A stretch of DNA of 64,000 bases. Source: Salinispira pacifica (lineage in GTDB: Bacteria; Spirochaetota; Spirochaetia; DSM-27196; Salinispiraceae). The DNA is taken from positions 1,589,501 to 1,653,500 of the forward strand of contig NC_023035.1 of assembly GCF_000507245.1 (NCBI RefSeq), written 5' to 3'. Of this stretch, positions 19,356 through 25,855 are shown piece by piece. Position 1 is the stretch's first letter; each line of letters starts with the position of its first letter. A model generated the notes under the pieces. That model did no database searches, was not told the DNA's origin, and was given only the letters and a program-made list of their open reading frames with translations. A program made the position numbers and the translations under genes.

Positions 19356-19384
19356 TTGACATGAAACCCGGGTCAAGGTATGAT
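19356..19384 (+). promoter_or_regulatory. Strong rbsR promoter (TTGACA-17-TATGAT)
   Basis: TTGACA at 19356-19361, a 17-bp spacer and TATGAT at 19379-19384. Transcription should start near 19390-19392, which is the ATG of rbsR itself. No Shine-Dalgarno lies in that span, so the rbsR message is probably leaderless. Confidence 0.75.
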
Positions 19385-19391
19385 CTTGATT

Positions 19392-20426
19392 ATGAAGATT
19401 ACAATTCGGGATGTAGCCCGGAAAGCCGGTGTTTCCCCTGCCACAGTATCCCTGGTCCTGAATAATCGTCCCGGTGTGGGCAATGATACACGAAAAACAG
19501 TGGAGGATGCCGCCGAAGCGCTGAACTATAGAATCCCCCAGACCAAGTCAAGGACAAATGAGCGTCAAAACGGGATTATCCGTTTTCTGAAAATCGCCCG
19601 CCACGGACATATTTTAAACCGGGATCACAATGTGTTTATCAGCGATTATATCGAAGGCATTGAGGCTGCAGCCCGGGAGGAAGGGTACAGTCTGGAGGTC
19701 CGGAACTATGCCAGCTTTCAGCCCGATGAAATTATCGATGAATTGAGAACCGACGCCCCTGCAGGTGCGGTGATTCTTGCCACCGAATTGGATGCACAAG
19801 ATATTCTGCCGTTCAGCGCAGCCAACATCCCCATGGTTTTCATTGATGCGGTCAATCCCTATGCCAATTTTGATTTTGTTGATATGGACAATGAAGGAGC
19901 GGTGTTCTCCATTGTGGAGGCGATGAAGGAGAGGGGAATACGCAGAATCGGTCTGGTCTCGGCACGGCTTGAAACCCGGAATTTCCGCCAGAGGGCCCAG
20001 AGCTTCTACCAGGCAGTGGACTATTTCGGCCTGGAAACCAAAAGCGAGTGGGATTACCGGGTGGACTCCACATATGATCAATCCTACCGGGATATGTCCG
20101 CTCAACTGGATTCCCGGAAAACCCTTCCACAGGGGCTGTTTTGTGTCTGCGATATCATCGCCTTCGGCTGTATGAAGGCTCTGAAAGAGAAGAATATCCG
20201 TATTCCGGAAGATATTTCCCTGGTGGGATTTGATGATCTGCCTTCAAGTCAGCACACCGATCCGCCCCTTGCAAGTATCAAAGTTTCCAAGAAACGGATC
20301 GGAAGGAGGGCTTTCCAGCTTATCCGCCGAAGAATAGAATCGGAAATGCCTTTGCCCTATGAAAAGGTCTTTATCGGCAGTGAACTGATGGTGCGGGAAA
20401 GTCTCGAATTTTCACAGAAGGAGTAG
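19392..20426 (+). CDS. rbsR: LacI-family repressor of the ribose genes
   Basis: A 344-residue LacI/GalR regulator. The HTH is at residues 3-22 (ITIRDVARKAGVSPATVSL), the hinge helix follows at ~45-55, and the rest is a periplasmic-binding-like ligand domain with DDLPSSQHTDPPLASI near the end. It should release DNA when ribose or a ribose derivative binds. I chose the ATG at 19392, not 19380: the earlier ATG overlaps the -10 box, and LacI proteins normally begin a few residues before the HTH. The predicted transcript begins at or next to this ATG. Ribokinase follows after 4 bp; the importer operon is divergent. Confidence 0.9.
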   Translation: MKITIRDVARKAGVSPATVSLVLNNRPGVGNDTRKTVEDAAEALNYRIPQTKSRTNERQNGIIRFLKIARHGHILNRDHNVFISDYIEGIEAAAREEGYSLEVRNYASFQPDEIIDELRTDAPAGAVILATELDAQDILPFSAANIPMVFIDAVNPYANFDFVDMDNEGAVFSIVEAMKERGIRRIGLVSARLETRNFRQRAQSFYQAVDYFGLETKSEWDYRVDSTYDQSYRDMSAQLDSRKTLPQGLFCVCDIIAFGCMKALKEKNIRIPEDISLVGFDDLPSSQHTDPPLASIKVSKKRIGRRAFQLIRRRIESEMPLPYEKVFIGSELMVRESLEFSQKE

Positions 20427-20430
20427 ACAC

Positions 20431-21303
20431 ATGCGAATACTGAACTACGGATCTCTCAATGTTGATCATGTGTATTCCGTCCCTCACATCGTTCGTCCGG
20501 GAGAAACCCTTGCCGGAGAGTCGCTGAACTTCTTTGCCGGCGGAAAAGGGGCCAATCAATCCGTTGCCATCGCCAAGGCGGGAGGCGATGTATGGCATGC
20601 CGGGAAACTGGGCGGGGATGCGGACTGGCTGCTTGAGAAACTGCAGCAGTTTGATGTGAAAACCGATTATGTTACCCAAGATGACGGTCTCAGCGGTCAT
20701 GCCATAATTCAGGTCAGCTCCCAGGGGGAAAATTCCATTGTGCTGTATGGAGGCGGCAATCAGCGTATAACCAAGGAAGAGATAGACGCAACCCTGGTCC
20801 TGTTCTCCCGGGGGGATGTGCTTGTGCTGCAGAATGAAATCAACAATATCCCGCATATCATGGAAAAGGGCCTTGCCCAGGGCCTGAAGATTGCTGTGAA
20901 CCCCGCACCCTTCACCCCGGATGTTTCCCGTTGGCCCCTTGATAAGGTGCATACATTGGTGGTGAACGAAACTGAGGCAGCCGGAATCGTCCAATCCGAT
21001 GCTTCCCCCGGCAGCACCCTGGACATGCTGACCCGGCGCTATCCCGAAACCGAGATTGTTCTCACCCTGGGAAGCAAGGGGGCATGGTATGCAAAGGGCA
21101 GGAAAAGAGCTTTTGTCGAAAGCAGGAAGGTGAATGCAGTGGATACCACCGCCGCAGGAGACACCTTCCTGGGATACTATCTGGTGGAACGTTTCGCCGG
21201 CGCTTCCCCGGAACGGGCTATGGACCTGGCAGCTGAAGCCGCAGCCATTACCGTGTCCCGTCCCGGAGCCATGGAATCAATTCCTTTCCGCAGCGAGCTC
21301 TGA
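20431..21303 (+). CDS. rbsK: Ribokinase (PfkB family)
   Basis: A 290-residue PfkB-family sugar kinase with the N-terminal substrate motif AGGKGANQ (36-43) and the C-terminal signature DTTAAGDTF (~233-241), containing the catalytic aspartate. It phosphorylates ribose at O5 in the cytoplasm, feeding the pentose phosphate pathway. Four bases after rbsR, so the two are one operon. The length is slightly short compared with about 305 for E. coli RbsK, with no obvious missing motif. Confidence 0.92.
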   Translation: MRILNYGSLNVDHVYSVPHIVRPGETLAGESLNFFAGGKGANQSVAIAKAGGDVWHAGKLGGDADWLLEKLQQFDVKTDYVTQDDGLSGHAIIQVSSQGENSIVLYGGGNQRITKEEIDATLVLFSRGDVLVLQNEINNIPHIMEKGLAQGLKIAVNPAPFTPDVSRWPLDKVHTLVVNETEAAGIVQSDASPGSTLDMLTRRYPETEIVLTLGSKGAWYAKGRKRAFVESRKVNAVDTTAAGDTFLGYYLVERFAGASPERAMDLAAEAAAITVSRPGAMESIPFRSEL

Positions 21304-21339: not shown

Positions 21340-22281
21340 TTATACCCGGCCTGCCAAAGCGCGGTTCTTTTCGTAGGCGATGAGCTCGTCCCGGGTCAAA
21401 CTTCCGTCTTCAATATCCACACCGAAGGCATCTGAAAGTGCGGATAGGAAGACTGCTTTGAAATCTTCCAGTGAGATCGATTGTCCGGTTTCGCTCAGGA
21501 TGCTGGTCATTGGCTCCAGTGCCCGTTCTTTCAGTTCCGGCGGGATGTACAACACCTTGAACAGCGGACCGTTGTCCATATCCTTCAGGAAGGTCACGAT
21601 ATTCACGATATACAGGTTTTCGATTTCGCTGAGGAGTATGGTGGCAAGTTTCTTGCCGCTGGCTCTGATGGCACCTTTGTGGCTGTACCAGGCATCCTCG
21701 ACTCCCATGGATCGGAAACTGCTCACTAATATTTCACCCACGGCATGATACGCCTCATCGAAGTCAGAAAAGCGCGTTTTGTCGAAGACCATTTGGATAT
21801 TCACCGATGAACCGGGATCAACATACACAAAGGTTCGTTGGCCGGTGACGATGATGTGCTCCAGATCGGGGCAATCCCGTTGGATTTCCTGAATGAGGCC
21901 GGCGAAGTTGGACAGGCATATCACTGCTTTTGCACCGCTATCCCGGAGGATGTGAGATATTTCCCTTCCCTTGTACATGGTGTTGAATGGCACGGCTATG
22001 GCTCCCAGCTTCTGAATTCCGAAGAAACTGTAGTAGAACTCCTTGATGTTGGGAAGCATGATGGCTACCCGGTCTCCTGGGACTATTCCCAGGGATTCCA
22101 GGCCCCCTGCAACACGGTTAGCCTGGCCGTCGGCTTCCTGATAGCTGATCACCTGATTTTCATAGCGGATGGCTTCCCGGCGCTTGAATTGGGAGCTTAT
22201 CGTCTCAAACATCTGTCCCAGGCCGATGGGAAGCTCCCCAACGGGAATCTCTGCCTTGCCAAAAAGTTTTTTCTTAAACAT
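21340..22281 (-). CDS. Chimera: N-terminal half of acyl-CoA synthetase joined to C-terminal half of lipoate-ligase-like protein
   Basis: A 313-residue open frame. Residues 1-149 are the first third of an AMP-forming acyl-CoA synthetase (ISYQEADGQANRVAGGL, then GDRVAIMLPN), ending just before the ATP-binding P-loop. From residue 150 (TFVYVDPGSSVN) it becomes the second part of a lipoate ligase A-like protein, including the catalytic-lysine-type AIRASGKKLA. The missing synthetase part sits in the neighbouring gene at 22274-23515, and the missing ligase part at 23516-23773. The ATG at 22281 has AGGAGC 8 bp upstream. Neither half-domain should work alone. No internal stop is present, so the joint is recent, selected, or an assembly artefact. 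Confidence 0.8.
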   Translation of the reverse strand: MFKKKLFGKAEIPVGELPIGLGQMFETISSQFKRREAIRYENQVISYQEADGQANRVAGGLESLGIVPGDRVAIMLPNIKEFYYSFFGIQKLGAIAVPFNTMYKGREISHILRDSGAKAVICLSNFAGLIQEIQRDCPDLEHIIVTGQRTFVYVDPGSSVNIQMVFDKTRFSDFDEAYHAVGEILVSSFRSMGVEDAWYSHKGAIRASGKKLATILLSEIENLYIVNIVTFLKDMDNGPLFKVLYIPPELKERALEPMTSILSETGQSISLEDFKAVFLSALSDAFGVDIEDGSLTRDELIAYEKNRALAGRV

Positions 22282-23773
22282 CGTGCTGGCTCCTGTTTAT
22301 CAGCCGGGTGTCTTCGGCATCCTGCCGCAGCTCTCTCCGCAACAACTTGCCGGTAGCGGTTTTCGGCAGGGAGGGGGCGAGCAACCATTCCTGAGGCTGC
22401 TTATATCGGGCTACGCCGGTATCAGTGTATTCCCGGAGCATCTTCACAAGATTCTTTCCGAAATCACTCTCCCGCAGTTTCTTCATGTCCATATCCGAAG
22501 GATCGCTGCCGAATTCCGGGGGAATATTCCGGGGAACCACGATGGCCACCACCGTTTCTTCCTTCAAGTCGTTTTTCCTTGCGATTACCGCCGATTCCAA
22601 TACCTGTTCGTGTCGGTCAATAAACTCCTCCACCTCACGGGGACTGACGTTATAGCCATTGTGGATAATAATATCTTTCTTCCGATCTGTTATGAAGAAA
22701 AACCCGTCTTCGTCGACGTAGCCCAGGTCACCGGTGAGGAGCCAGCCGTCTTCGGTAAGCACATCTCCGGTTGCCTGGGGATTGTTCCAATACCCGGCAA
22801 ACACTGTAGTGGACCGGATGGCGATCTCACCTTCCTGGCCTGTGGGCACTTCGCTTCCCTGGGCGTCTATGATTTTCATTTCCACACCCCGGCCGGCCCG
22901 GCCGATGGAACCGTCCCGGTATTCGCCGTTCACCCCATTGGCGGCCACAGCGGAGGTGGATTCTGTGAGTCCGTAACCCTCCATGATATTGGTTTCGAAT
23001 GTCTTCCCGAAATCTTCATACAGGCGTTGGCTCAAGGGAGCGCCGCCGGATATGCAGTGGTTTAAGCTCTTGGGTATGATCGTTTTATTCCGGGCCTGCC
23101 TGGCTGCCAGCATAAGGTGCTGATACATGGTTGGAACTGCCGGAAGGATGGTGGCCTTGTGCTTTTCTATGGTTTCCAAAAGGATCTGGGGCGAATACCT
23201 CGGAACCATCACCAGACAGGCTCCGAAATGCACCGATGCGATCATGGAATTTGCCAGGCCGAATATGTGATACAGCGGCAGGGTTCCGATGACCCGGTCA
23301 CTAGACTTGAAATCCAGCAGGGAGGTAACAATGGTGCTGCATTGGAAGTGGAAATTCCGATGGCTGATCATCGCACCTTTGGGCAGCCCGGTGGTACCGG
23401 AAGTATAGATCAACACCGCCGGATCATCGGGGTTCACCTCCCTGGCCTGGTAATTCTTGGATGATTTCGCCATGAGTTCGCTTAACTGAATGGTGCCCAC
23501 GGATTTGGCACCGTTGCGCCCGCCCCGGGGCAGCCTGGCCACTTCAACGCCGTAGCGCTCCGACTCCCCCCGATCTACGCTGACATCGGCGCCTGCGACG
23601 ATTCCCGGGCGCTTCACCGCTTGGATTACTACGCTGTCGGGAACCAGGGTGTTGGACAGTTGATACTTCCCGGCGATCCTTCCTTCGGCCACCGATGCGC
23701 CGTAGCTGGGCACGTCAAAAACATCGCCTTCGGGATTATACAACAGACGCCATGTCTCATTCTTTTCACTCAT
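22274..23773 (-). CDS. Chimera: N-terminal third of lipoate-ligase-like protein joined to C-terminal part of acyl-CoA synthetase
   Basis: A 499-residue open frame starting at the ATG at 23773 (AGGAG upstream). Residues 1-86 read as the start of an LplA-type ligase (ETWRLL at 6-11, RLPRGGR at 80-86). From residue 87 (NGAKSVGTIQLSEL) it is the main part of an AMP-binding enzyme: P-loop YTSGTTGLPKG, MEGYGLTES, TGDLGYVDEDGFF, KTATGKLLRREL. The last 8 bp overlap the start of the companion chimera. It has the synthetase ATP-binding and C-terminal lysine motifs but lacks the first ~149 residues. It follows the symporter gene by 10 bp in one leftward operon. Confidence 0.82.
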   Translation of the reverse strand: MSEKNETWRLLYNPEGDVFDVPSYGASVAEGRIAGKYQLSNTLVPDSVVIQAVKRPGIVAGADVSVDRGESERYGVEVARLPRGGRNGAKSVGTIQLSELMAKSSKNYQAREVNPDDPAVLIYTSGTTGLPKGAMISHRNFHFQCSTIVTSLLDFKSSDRVIGTLPLYHIFGLANSMIASVHFGACLVMVPRYSPQILLETIEKHKATILPAVPTMYQHLMLAARQARNKTIIPKSLNHCISGGAPLSQRLYEDFGKTFETNIMEGYGLTESTSAVAANGVNGEYRDGSIGRAGRGVEMKIIDAQGSEVPTGQEGEIAIRSTTVFAGYWNNPQATGDVLTEDGWLLTGDLGYVDEDGFFFITDRKKDIIIHNGYNVSPREVEEFIDRHEQVLESAVIARKNDLKEETVVAIVVPRNIPPEFGSDPSDMDMKKLRESDFGKNLVKMLREYTDTGVARYKQPQEWLLAPSLPKTATGKLLRRELRQDAEDTRLINRSQHDV

Positions 23774-23783
23774 GCTGTATCTC

Positions 23784-25337
23784 CTATCCTTTCGCCTTGG
23801 CGCCGGATTCGGCCTTGAGATAGGCTTCAACTTCATCGAAAAACTGTGCTTCGATATCTTCTCCGGGCCTGGGAGTGAGCAGGCTGGTAATGATGTACGC
23901 CAGGGTATTGACCAACAGGCTGGGGATGACCGGATGGCCTATTACCAATGGACGTTCACCGTTGACTACGATTACCAGGCTGAGAACCAGGTATATTACC
24001 CCTGCCAGGGTTCCGGCTATGGCTCCCTGCTTTGTTCCCCGTTTCCACAAAAGACCTCCCACCAATGCCGGTGCCCACTGGGCGAAACCCGGGACACTCA
24101 CGTCGGTGAGGTAGAGGGCCATGGCACCCTGATTGAGAAAACTGACAACAAGGCTGAGAACAACCACAGCAATAACCGCCCAACGGGCCCAGGTGGTAAT
24201 CTGCCTGTCGCTGGCATCAGGCTTAAACAGCCCCTGAATGATGTCCCGGCTGACGATAACGCTTGAGGTCATCAACTGTACCGCTGCGGTACTCACCGCC
24301 GCGGCGATTACCCCCAGAAGAACGAACACGCCGAACCATTCCGGCAACGTACGGCTGATTACCGTTTGAACGACCCTGTCGGCCTCCGTCTGGAGAGACA
24401 CTCCGTTGCTGTTCGCCAGTGCCTGCAACTCTTCCATGGGCATGGCGGCGGGAGCAACCAGGGAACCCCAGATGAAGGGGAGAATATAAAAGAACAGTCC
24501 CCCGAAAACGAATATCAACAGAGGGAACCATTTAAACAGGCTCTTGTCTCTGGCGGTCATGCAGCCGATGGCTACGTGGGGCCAGCTGAATGCCAGGATT
24601 CCTACCACGAAGGTTCCGCCGAGGACCACCGGGGTATAGGCCCCCACCGGACCGGGATCTGAAAGAAGTTCCGGCCGGGACTGTGCAACGATGCTTGCAG
24701 CCTGGGCCAGACCGCCGTCGGGAAACAGAACCTGTACCGCCCACAGCAGGCTTCCCAGGAGGGCCGTCATATATATGACCCCCAGAAAGATATTCACCCA
24801 TGCCACAATTCTCATTCCGCCCAGCATCACCAGCACTATCAGAATAACTGCGGTGTAAATGGCACCCCAGGCTGCGGGCAAACCGGTGAGGGCTTCAAAA
24901 CCCGCACCCACCCCAAGGGGCTGAATGCCGACATAGGGAACAATAAACGCAAGAATACTCAGGGACAGGATGAGCCGCAGGGTCTTGGATTGATACCGTT
25001 CCCCCAGTACCTCAACAGGTGAGAGAAAGCGGTTGATTTTGGCCAGAGCCCAGAGCCGGGGTCCCAAAAACATGTAGAGCCCCGCAAAGCCTACCACCGA
25101 ACCCCAGATGAACATGACGTATCCCGGTCCCTGGGTATAAAGCAAACCGGGGAATCCGTAAAAGGTCCAGGCCGATGATATGGCAAATAAAACAAAAAAG
25201 AACATGACAACAACGCCGATGGTGCGCCCGCCGAGCATGAAATCTTCTGCGGTCTTTGCACTTATCCGATACCCGTATGCCGCCATGAAAACGATAACAG
25301 CCCCGAAGAGGGTGAGCGAAACGAGAGTAAAAGCCAT
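23784..25337 (-). CDS. Sodium:solute symporter (SSS family)
   Basis: A 517-residue SSS protein with about 13 hydrophobic segments. Typical blocks are EDFMLGGRTIG near the N-terminus and AAVSTAAVQLMTSSVIVSRDI in the second half, where the sodium site lies. It should import an organic solute with Na+, most likely a carboxylate, given its DUF3311-like partner and the acyl/lipoate genes downstream (inference). The ATG at 25337 is chosen for AGGAGG just upstream; the longer open frame before it has none. It lies 8 bp after the small membrane protein gene and 10 bp before the chimera pair: one operon. Confidence 0.9.
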   Translation of the reverse strand: MAFTLVSLTLFGAVIVFMAAYGYRISAKTAEDFMLGGRTIGVVVMFFFVLFAISSAWTFYGFPGLLYTQGPGYVMFIWGSVVGFAGLYMFLGPRLWALAKINRFLSPVEVLGERYQSKTLRLILSLSILAFIVPYVGIQPLGVGAGFEALTGLPAAWGAIYTAVILIVLVMLGGMRIVAWVNIFLGVIYMTALLGSLLWAVQVLFPDGGLAQAASIVAQSRPELLSDPGPVGAYTPVVLGGTFVVGILAFSWPHVAIGCMTARDKSLFKWFPLLIFVFGGLFFYILPFIWGSLVAPAAMPMEELQALANSNGVSLQTEADRVVQTVISRTLPEWFGVFVLLGVIAAAVSTAAVQLMTSSVIVSRDIIQGLFKPDASDRQITTWARWAVIAVVVLSLVVSFLNQGAMALYLTDVSVPGFAQWAPALVGGLLWKRGTKQGAIAGTLAGVIYLVLSLVIVVNGERPLVIGHPVIPSLLVNTLAYIITSLLTPRPGEDIEAQFFDEVEAYLKAESGAKAKG

Positions 25338-25345
25338 AGGACCTC

Positions 25346-25579
25346 CTACCGGTACGGCCAGAAGAAAAAGAAGTAGATGATGTAGCTGATCAGCCAAAAG
25401 AGTACAAAAATGACTCCTATTACCAACGGCATGGTCATCCACCCGAACAGCAAGAAGGGTTCTTCACCGGGACCGGTTTGGGTACCGCCGATTGCCAGGA
25501 AGGTGATAAACCCGATTACCGACAACAGCAGGAGCACAAGGTATATCCTGCCGGCACTATGACGTGTCATTTCTTTCAT
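25346..25579 (-). CDS. Small membrane protein, DUF3311-like symporter partner
   Basis: A 77-residue protein with two hydrophobic helices (about residues 12-30 and 45-70) and an aromatic-rich end, YFFFFWPYR. Small two-helix proteins of the DUF3311 type are regularly encoded directly before SSS symporters, as here, with an 8-bp gap. It is probably a subunit or assembly factor of the symporter. The start could be the ATG at 25579 or the next Met three codons later (25570). Confidence 0.75.
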   Translation of the reverse strand: MKEMTRHSAGRIYLVLLLLSVIGFITFLAIGGTQTGPGEEPFLLFGWMTMPLVIGVIFVLFWLISYIIYFFFFWPYR

Positions 25580-25855
25580 GCTTATAGAATAATCACATAC
25601 AGTGATGATTTGCAGACATTTCGCTATTTTCCTGATAAAAATAATCAGATAATAATACGCACCCCCAAAACAGCTCAACATACGTGTATTGATTCCTGCC
25701 AAGTTCACGGATGAACATCCACCGCTCCTCTTTTCCGGGCCCGAGCACCTCCATGAGTTCCTCTGCCGGATTCAATCACAGGGGGAGATATACGCCCGCT
25801 GAAATTCGCTCCACCAACCAAATTCCAGACGAAAGATATTTCTCTGTGGATCTCC

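Follow-up and report, generated by a model that had tools for sequence, protein, structure and literature searches.

Two adjacent genes in the genome of Salinispira pacifica raise an unusual question: why does each encode the beginning of one enzyme fused to the end of another, and how could such proteins function? The genes, P1 (499 aa; positions 22274..23773, minus strand) and P2 (313 aa; positions 21340..22281, minus strand), lie in the window, which here denotes the whole 64,000-nt stretch of DNA that was analysed. The original prediction, made from the sequence of this region, described them as reciprocal chimeras in which an acyl-CoA synthetase gene is circularly permuted inside a lipoate-ligase-like gene. 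Open reading frames and Pfam matches agreed with this description, and the coordinates and both chimeric reading frames were exact. The source genome, 99.8% complete, consists of one 3.78-Mb contig, in which no second copy of either chimera was found. Our overall explanation is that the pair is probably a cross-fused heterodimer that arose from one ancient reciprocal exchange; more tentatively, we propose a role in the uptake, ATP activation and protein attachment of a carboxylate.

Two reciprocally chimeric genes

Reading frames, Pfam matches and orthologues divided each gene into two parts. P1 starts with the N-terminal part of the ligase (Lig_N, ligase residues 1-86; 23516..23773, minus strand), which in the alignment ends in a conserved P-R-x-G-R loop, and continues from NGAK with the C-terminal part of the synthetase (ACS_C, synthetase residues 150-562; 22274..23515, minus strand). 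P2 starts with the N-terminal part of the synthetase (ACS_N, synthetase residues 1-149, ending in VTGQR; 21835..22281, minus strand) and continues from TFVY with the C-terminal part of the ligase (Lig_C, ligase residues 87-250; 21340..21834, minus strand). Joining the outer parts gave an in-frame ligase of 250 aa, and joining the ends of the 1681-bp inner segment gave an in-frame synthetase of 562 aa, exactly as had been claimed. The in-frame joins are real and carry no weight, because the breaks were placed at codon boundaries and the frame follows automatically from this choice; in-frame excision was therefore rejected as evidence.

Pfam analysis of P1 revealed an AMP-binding match at profile positions 152-384 together with AMP-binding_C, and the synthetase part of P2 matched AMP-binding at positions 3-114. 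When the two parts were joined, a single continuous AMP-binding match was obtained across profile positions 3-384, with a score of 330 bits compared with 222 and 99.5 bits for the halves. The joined 562-aa synthetase also matched the long-chain acyl-CoA ligase model NF004837 continuously (463.7 bits, just under the curated cut-off of 476). ACS_C contains the P-loop (YTSGTTGLPKG), the GYGLTE, TGD and DRKKD motifs and the A10 lysine (P1 K476, codon at about 22346-22348). All core catalytic motifs of ANL enzymes are held by P1 alone; a complete AMP-binding domain with the P-loop, A5, A7, A8 and the A10 lysine exists only in P1 and P2 combined. The ANL motifs were kept in 55-56 of the 56 complete P1/P2 pairs, and P1 residues K132, E271, D349, R364, K366 and K476 were invariant in all 56, as were D70, P77, N78, P98, N100, Y103, K104, G147 and R149 in the ACS_N part of P2. 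The pair thus shares all core motifs and a continuous joined match with AMP-forming acyl-CoA synthetases (ANL; PRK06187, FadD-like), but it is cut at residue ~149 into two polypeptides, and this split between P1 and P2 was present in every locus.

The ligase part is very divergent, with Pfam scores near the cut-off and a best PDB profile match no better than E 0.005. The ligase part of P2 matched LplA-B_cat (PF21948) at positions 68-199. Joining increased the score of the window ligase from 33.6 bits for the P2 half alone to 46.8 bits (cut-off 27); two other joined ligases also scored over the cut-off (28.7 and 34.0 bits), and several P2 sequences alone scored under it. The profile of the joined ligase was collinear across the break with Thermoplasma LplA, in a weak match. 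In place of the RRxxGGG substrate loop the ligase has P-R-x-G-R, interrupted by the break, with R83 kept in 50/56, G85 in 54/56 and R86 in 53/56 pairs. The original prediction had proposed looking for an intact 250-aa ligase in relatives; none of this subfamily was found in 295 genomes of the phylum, which yielded chimeric pieces and one weak partial match (G218).

Conservation and origin of the pair

A search of 60 relatives with both joined proteins repeatedly recovered the same two pieces, side by side and with the same break residues. The breakpoints (about 146-150 in the synthetase and about 83-88 in the ligase) were reciprocal in most searched genomes of the order, and the alignments crossed the joints with no gap, the residues on either side being invariant or nearly so. 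We also scanned a species-level genome collection with P2. Among the 80 loci obtained, 69 carry P2, and the remaining matches of the scan were ordinary intact synthetases. Carriers of P2 belong mostly to Spirochaetota, and also to Desulfobacterota, Myxococcota, Fibrobacterota, Latescibacterota, Planctomycetota and WOR-3, together with a PVC bacterium. On every contig that extended far enough and was not masked, P1 immediately preceded P2 on the same strand, with the exception of two decayed copies and one unlinked case. A fused architecture kept as a stable gene pair in relatives had been named beforehand as an outcome that would support function, and this is what the searches revealed.

In a tree that included ten intact synthetases, the joined synthetases from the window and 55 further loci formed one clade (support 99/99), for which the simple reading would be a single origin of the cross-fused pair. 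Some Myxococcota and Latescibacterota rows nested within the Spirochaetota half of the tree; some transfer between phyla is therefore likely, and the pair probably spread in part by this route. The arrangement is not recent: it is either older than the split of the carrier phyla or has spread among them. For close pairs, dN/dS calculated for each of the four segments on its own was mostly 0.02-0.15, and the few noisier values, up to 0.66, came from a frameshifted copy or from pairs in which synonymous changes were very scarce. Values for the ligase segments were as low as those for the synthetase part in most pairs. These ratios show purifying selection on all four segments.

In the simplest route to this layout, a synthetase gene would circularise and then be inserted into that of a ligase, with both breaks in loops that tolerate them. 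We infer that such a one-step insertion would yield exactly the P1/P2 arrangement; it would also account for the exact reciprocity of the halves. Any other route would take several separate events whose breakpoints happened to coincide. After this single origin the pair would have been passed on as a unit, by inheritance or by transfer. One illegitimate recombination could in this way create an inseparable two-enzyme machine, and a stable, exactly reciprocal cross-fusion would, if true, be an uncommon way for an obligate protein complex to arise. Neither half would be of use alone, and this would account for the co-inheritance of the pair. On balance we lean towards a natural complex formed by a half-swap of unrelated enzymes, in which cross-fusion locks activation and acyl transfer together and which either was kept from before the separation of several bacterial phyla or spread between them.

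Probable assembly of the two chains and alternative explanations

P1 and P2 are very likely to form one obligate complex in which each chain completes the enzyme of the other. ACS_N in P2 would complete the N-terminal domain of a synthetase whose catalytic motifs sit in P1, and Lig_N in P1 would complete an acyltransferase domain of the lipoate/biotin-ligase type whose catalytic lysine sits in P2. As the swapped pair is conserved in several phyla with unchanged cut points, P1 and P2 very probably have to co-fold to rebuild both enzymes. For catalysis by both rebuilt enzymes we judge the chances to be about even.

Predicted structures were compared with solved ones. Residues 16-151 of the P2 model superposed on residues 23-158 of FadD5 (Z 16.4), in line with the assignment of ACS_N. 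Residues 127-313 superposed on residues 75-252 of T. acidophilum LplA (2c7i; Z 14.3, rmsd 3.1, 147 aligned), and biotin protein ligase 3efs gave a Z of 14.1; these matches identified a ligase fold for the C-terminal half in P2, the half that was compared. The ligase break is thereby modelled at about residue 75 of LplA, which we take to be the position of the substrate-binding loop. In a single-chain model of P1-P2, P1 residues 94-485 superposed on synthetase chains from residue ~125, so the synthetase break is predicted to fall after the first subdomain. The single-chain model was obtained with AF2 from 33 aligned sequences, with the P1 stop read through by a one-base step. It had a pLDDT of 85.4 and a pTM of 0.81, compared with a pTM of 0.67 for P2 alone, and two strands of the ligase part, 786-789 and 648-651 (the latter being the TFVY piece that adjoins the break), formed only with P1 present; as P1 and P2 were covalently linked in this run, the result supports assembly without proving it and is not an independent test of association. 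A structure search with the fused model listed only synthetase chains, the ligase being crowded out and found with P2 alone. Inter-protein covariation was analysed by MI-APC with ~38 effective sequences; within-enzyme pairs showed no clear enrichment, with a maximum of about 1.4-fold among the top 100 and none among the top 400.

A different use of the assembled pair, which we consider somewhat unlikely, is that the synthetase works while the LplA-like part is a non-catalytic scaffold, a regulatory domain or a docking domain that holds the chains together. The reduction of the GGG-type motif to P-R-x-G-R, the split at that very loop, the marginal ligase family scores and the presence of ordinary LplA/LipB in the same genomes would all fit such a role. 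The conservation of the ligase residues argues against it: W198, Y199 and E249 were invariant in the 56 pairs, and R206 and E256 were kept in 55/56, as was P2 K211 (codon at about 21649-21651), which aligns near the K region of LplA and is the putative equivalent of the catalytic lysine. The low dN/dS of the ligase segments in most pairs points in the same direction.

It is improbable that each chimera is a free-standing protein with a new function of its own and that the halves never reassemble. Both reading frames are intact in nearly all loci and P1 needs no partner for its core ANL motifs, as would be expected of independent proteins, but neither frame makes up the complete fold of either enzyme. 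Both moreover retain the sequence signature of the enzyme of the partner, as in the conserved ACS_N of P2, the breakpoints of the two enzymes match in exact reciprocity, and both genes are inherited together across phyla, the unlinked case included.

We also considered whether programmed DNA excision or RNA-level joining regenerates, in cis, a normal gene for the ligase and a circular one for the synthetase. Removal of the 1681 bp does produce both normal reading frames in this genome, but the segment is wholly coding, and no DNA repeat or recombination site was found at the joints over 56 loci and the window, beyond a shared arginine codon. A GGC-NNN-CGN likeness between the joints had been noted in the original prediction. 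It did not hold up as a DNA site: the longest in-register identity at the joints was 2.65 nt, close to the background of 2.21 nt (56 loci and the window), and the arginine codon is CGN at some loci and AGR at others. The spacing between P1 and P2 also varied among relatives from -134 to +165 nt, a range that depends on our choice of start codons. The 8-nt overlap of the P1 stop and the P2 start in the window, which had likewise been pointed out, is present as described and is an ordinary gene overlap without weight as evidence.

The unlinked case bears on this point. In a metagenome bin of the PVC group (G441; loci L152 and L087), P1 and P2 are intact and present in one copy each on different contigs, with linkage judged from contig content. 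P1 lies after the usual symporter and is followed by a convergent reductase-like gene, and P2 lies between unrelated genes on the other contig. Joining in cis is therefore impossible there, and this genome, the only unlinked case found, argues against restoration in cis at the level of DNA or RNA, which we regard as very improbable overall. A second candidate, a genome with P1 and P2 placed 1.2 Mb apart (G063; L150 and L151), was rejected as a separation; both ends lie at 100-N scaffold gaps, which suggests that the scaffolds were wrongly ordered. A recent accident or misassembly, for which nothing speaks except the odd layout, has a negligible probability and was ruled out because dozens of independently assembled genomes, including that of the isolate Alkalispirochaeta alkalica DSM 8900, share identical junctions. 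Of the three alternatives offered by the original prediction (a recent event, a selected fusion or an assembly error), the selected fusion is the supported one.

Gene neighbourhood and relation to known systems

Upstream of P1 lies a gene for a PanF/PutP-like sodium:solute symporter (23784..25442, minus strand; likely ATG near 25337), followed further upstream by a gene for a small membrane protein (25346..25708, minus strand; likely start near 25579). The symporter adjoined P1 in at least 43 of the 52 loci with room for it, a lower bound as the ORF filter dropped some symporters, with an identity of 48-87%. It belongs to the SSF family of Pfam and its best NCBIfam match is panF, but the score is far below the equivalog cut-off. 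The small membrane protein was conserved in 26 loci across phyla; it had no match to a Pfam or NCBIfam family and is a candidate accessory subunit. No other widely conserved neighbours of the pair were identified among the loci compared. The symporter, the small membrane protein, P1 and P2 together form a four-gene operon.

A possible function of the operon can be proposed from these components. The symporter would import a carboxylate, such as lipoate, a similar vitamin-like compound or a fatty acid; the synthetase would activate it as acyl-AMP or acyl-CoA; and the ligase-like domain would attach the acyl group to a carrier-protein lysine. A lipoate-like substrate with attachment to protein is a tentative proposal. 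Genes for LipA, GcvH and standard LplA/LipB are also present in the host genomes, so the P1/P2 module is not the general lipoylation route, and it may well act on another, or a further, substrate or acceptor.

Mammalian lipoate scavenging involves the same three kinds of protein as the P1/P2 operon, and its lipoate-activating enzyme is a medium-chain acyl-CoA synthetase. SMVT (SLC5A6), a sodium:solute symporter, can take lipoate (PMC8747999), and LIPT1, a 'half ligase' of the LplA type, is limited to the transfer of lipoyl from lipoyl-AMP (PMC7253636). A symporter, an activating enzyme and a transferase were encoded together in the same 43 or more loci, a likeness that concerns the proposed function only. 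The mammalian proteins are three separate and complete polypeptides, whereas here the synthetase and transferase are cut and cross-fused and the substrate is hypothetical. With this difference, the operon is a candidate bacterial counterpart of the mammalian uptake-activation-transfer pathway.

The closest solved fold for the P1/P2 ligase is that of Thermoplasma LplA/LplB (2c7i/2ars), which was among the best profile matches. This lipoate ligase is bipartite and consists of two polypeptides. Its catalytic domain is complete, and the second chain is a small C-terminal domain, whereas in P1/P2 the cut runs through the catalytic domain, at the substrate loop. The pair also resembles ordinary gene fission and split-protein heterodimers, in which fragments of one enzyme encoded by two genes reassemble, but here the fission concerns two unrelated enzymes, whose fragments are reciprocally fused. 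Our literature search found no described natural precedent for such a reciprocal cross-fusion, and we know of no described natural example that involves unrelated enzymes. If the pair is such a cross-fusion, automated annotation probably gives P1 and P2 alike the wrong name of an ordinary acyl-CoA ligase. P1 and P2 could also be used as a natural split-protein pair for engineering.

Several loci carry altered copies. L078 (7131-8711) and L110 (2985-4329) contain a frameshifted, internally deleted P1 and a shortened P2, and in L110 the remnants of the symporter, P1 and P2 merge into one reading frame; the short genes of L078 and the one-frame fusion of L110 look like decayed copies. The single breaks in L107 (6497-7464; P2 split over two frames) and L114 (6058-7516; P1 split by a stop) may be either sequencing errors or young pseudogenes. 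In the window, genes for a LacI-type regulator and a ribokinase-like kinase (19380-21303, plus strand) are convergent with P2 and lie outside the conserved neighbours of the pair.
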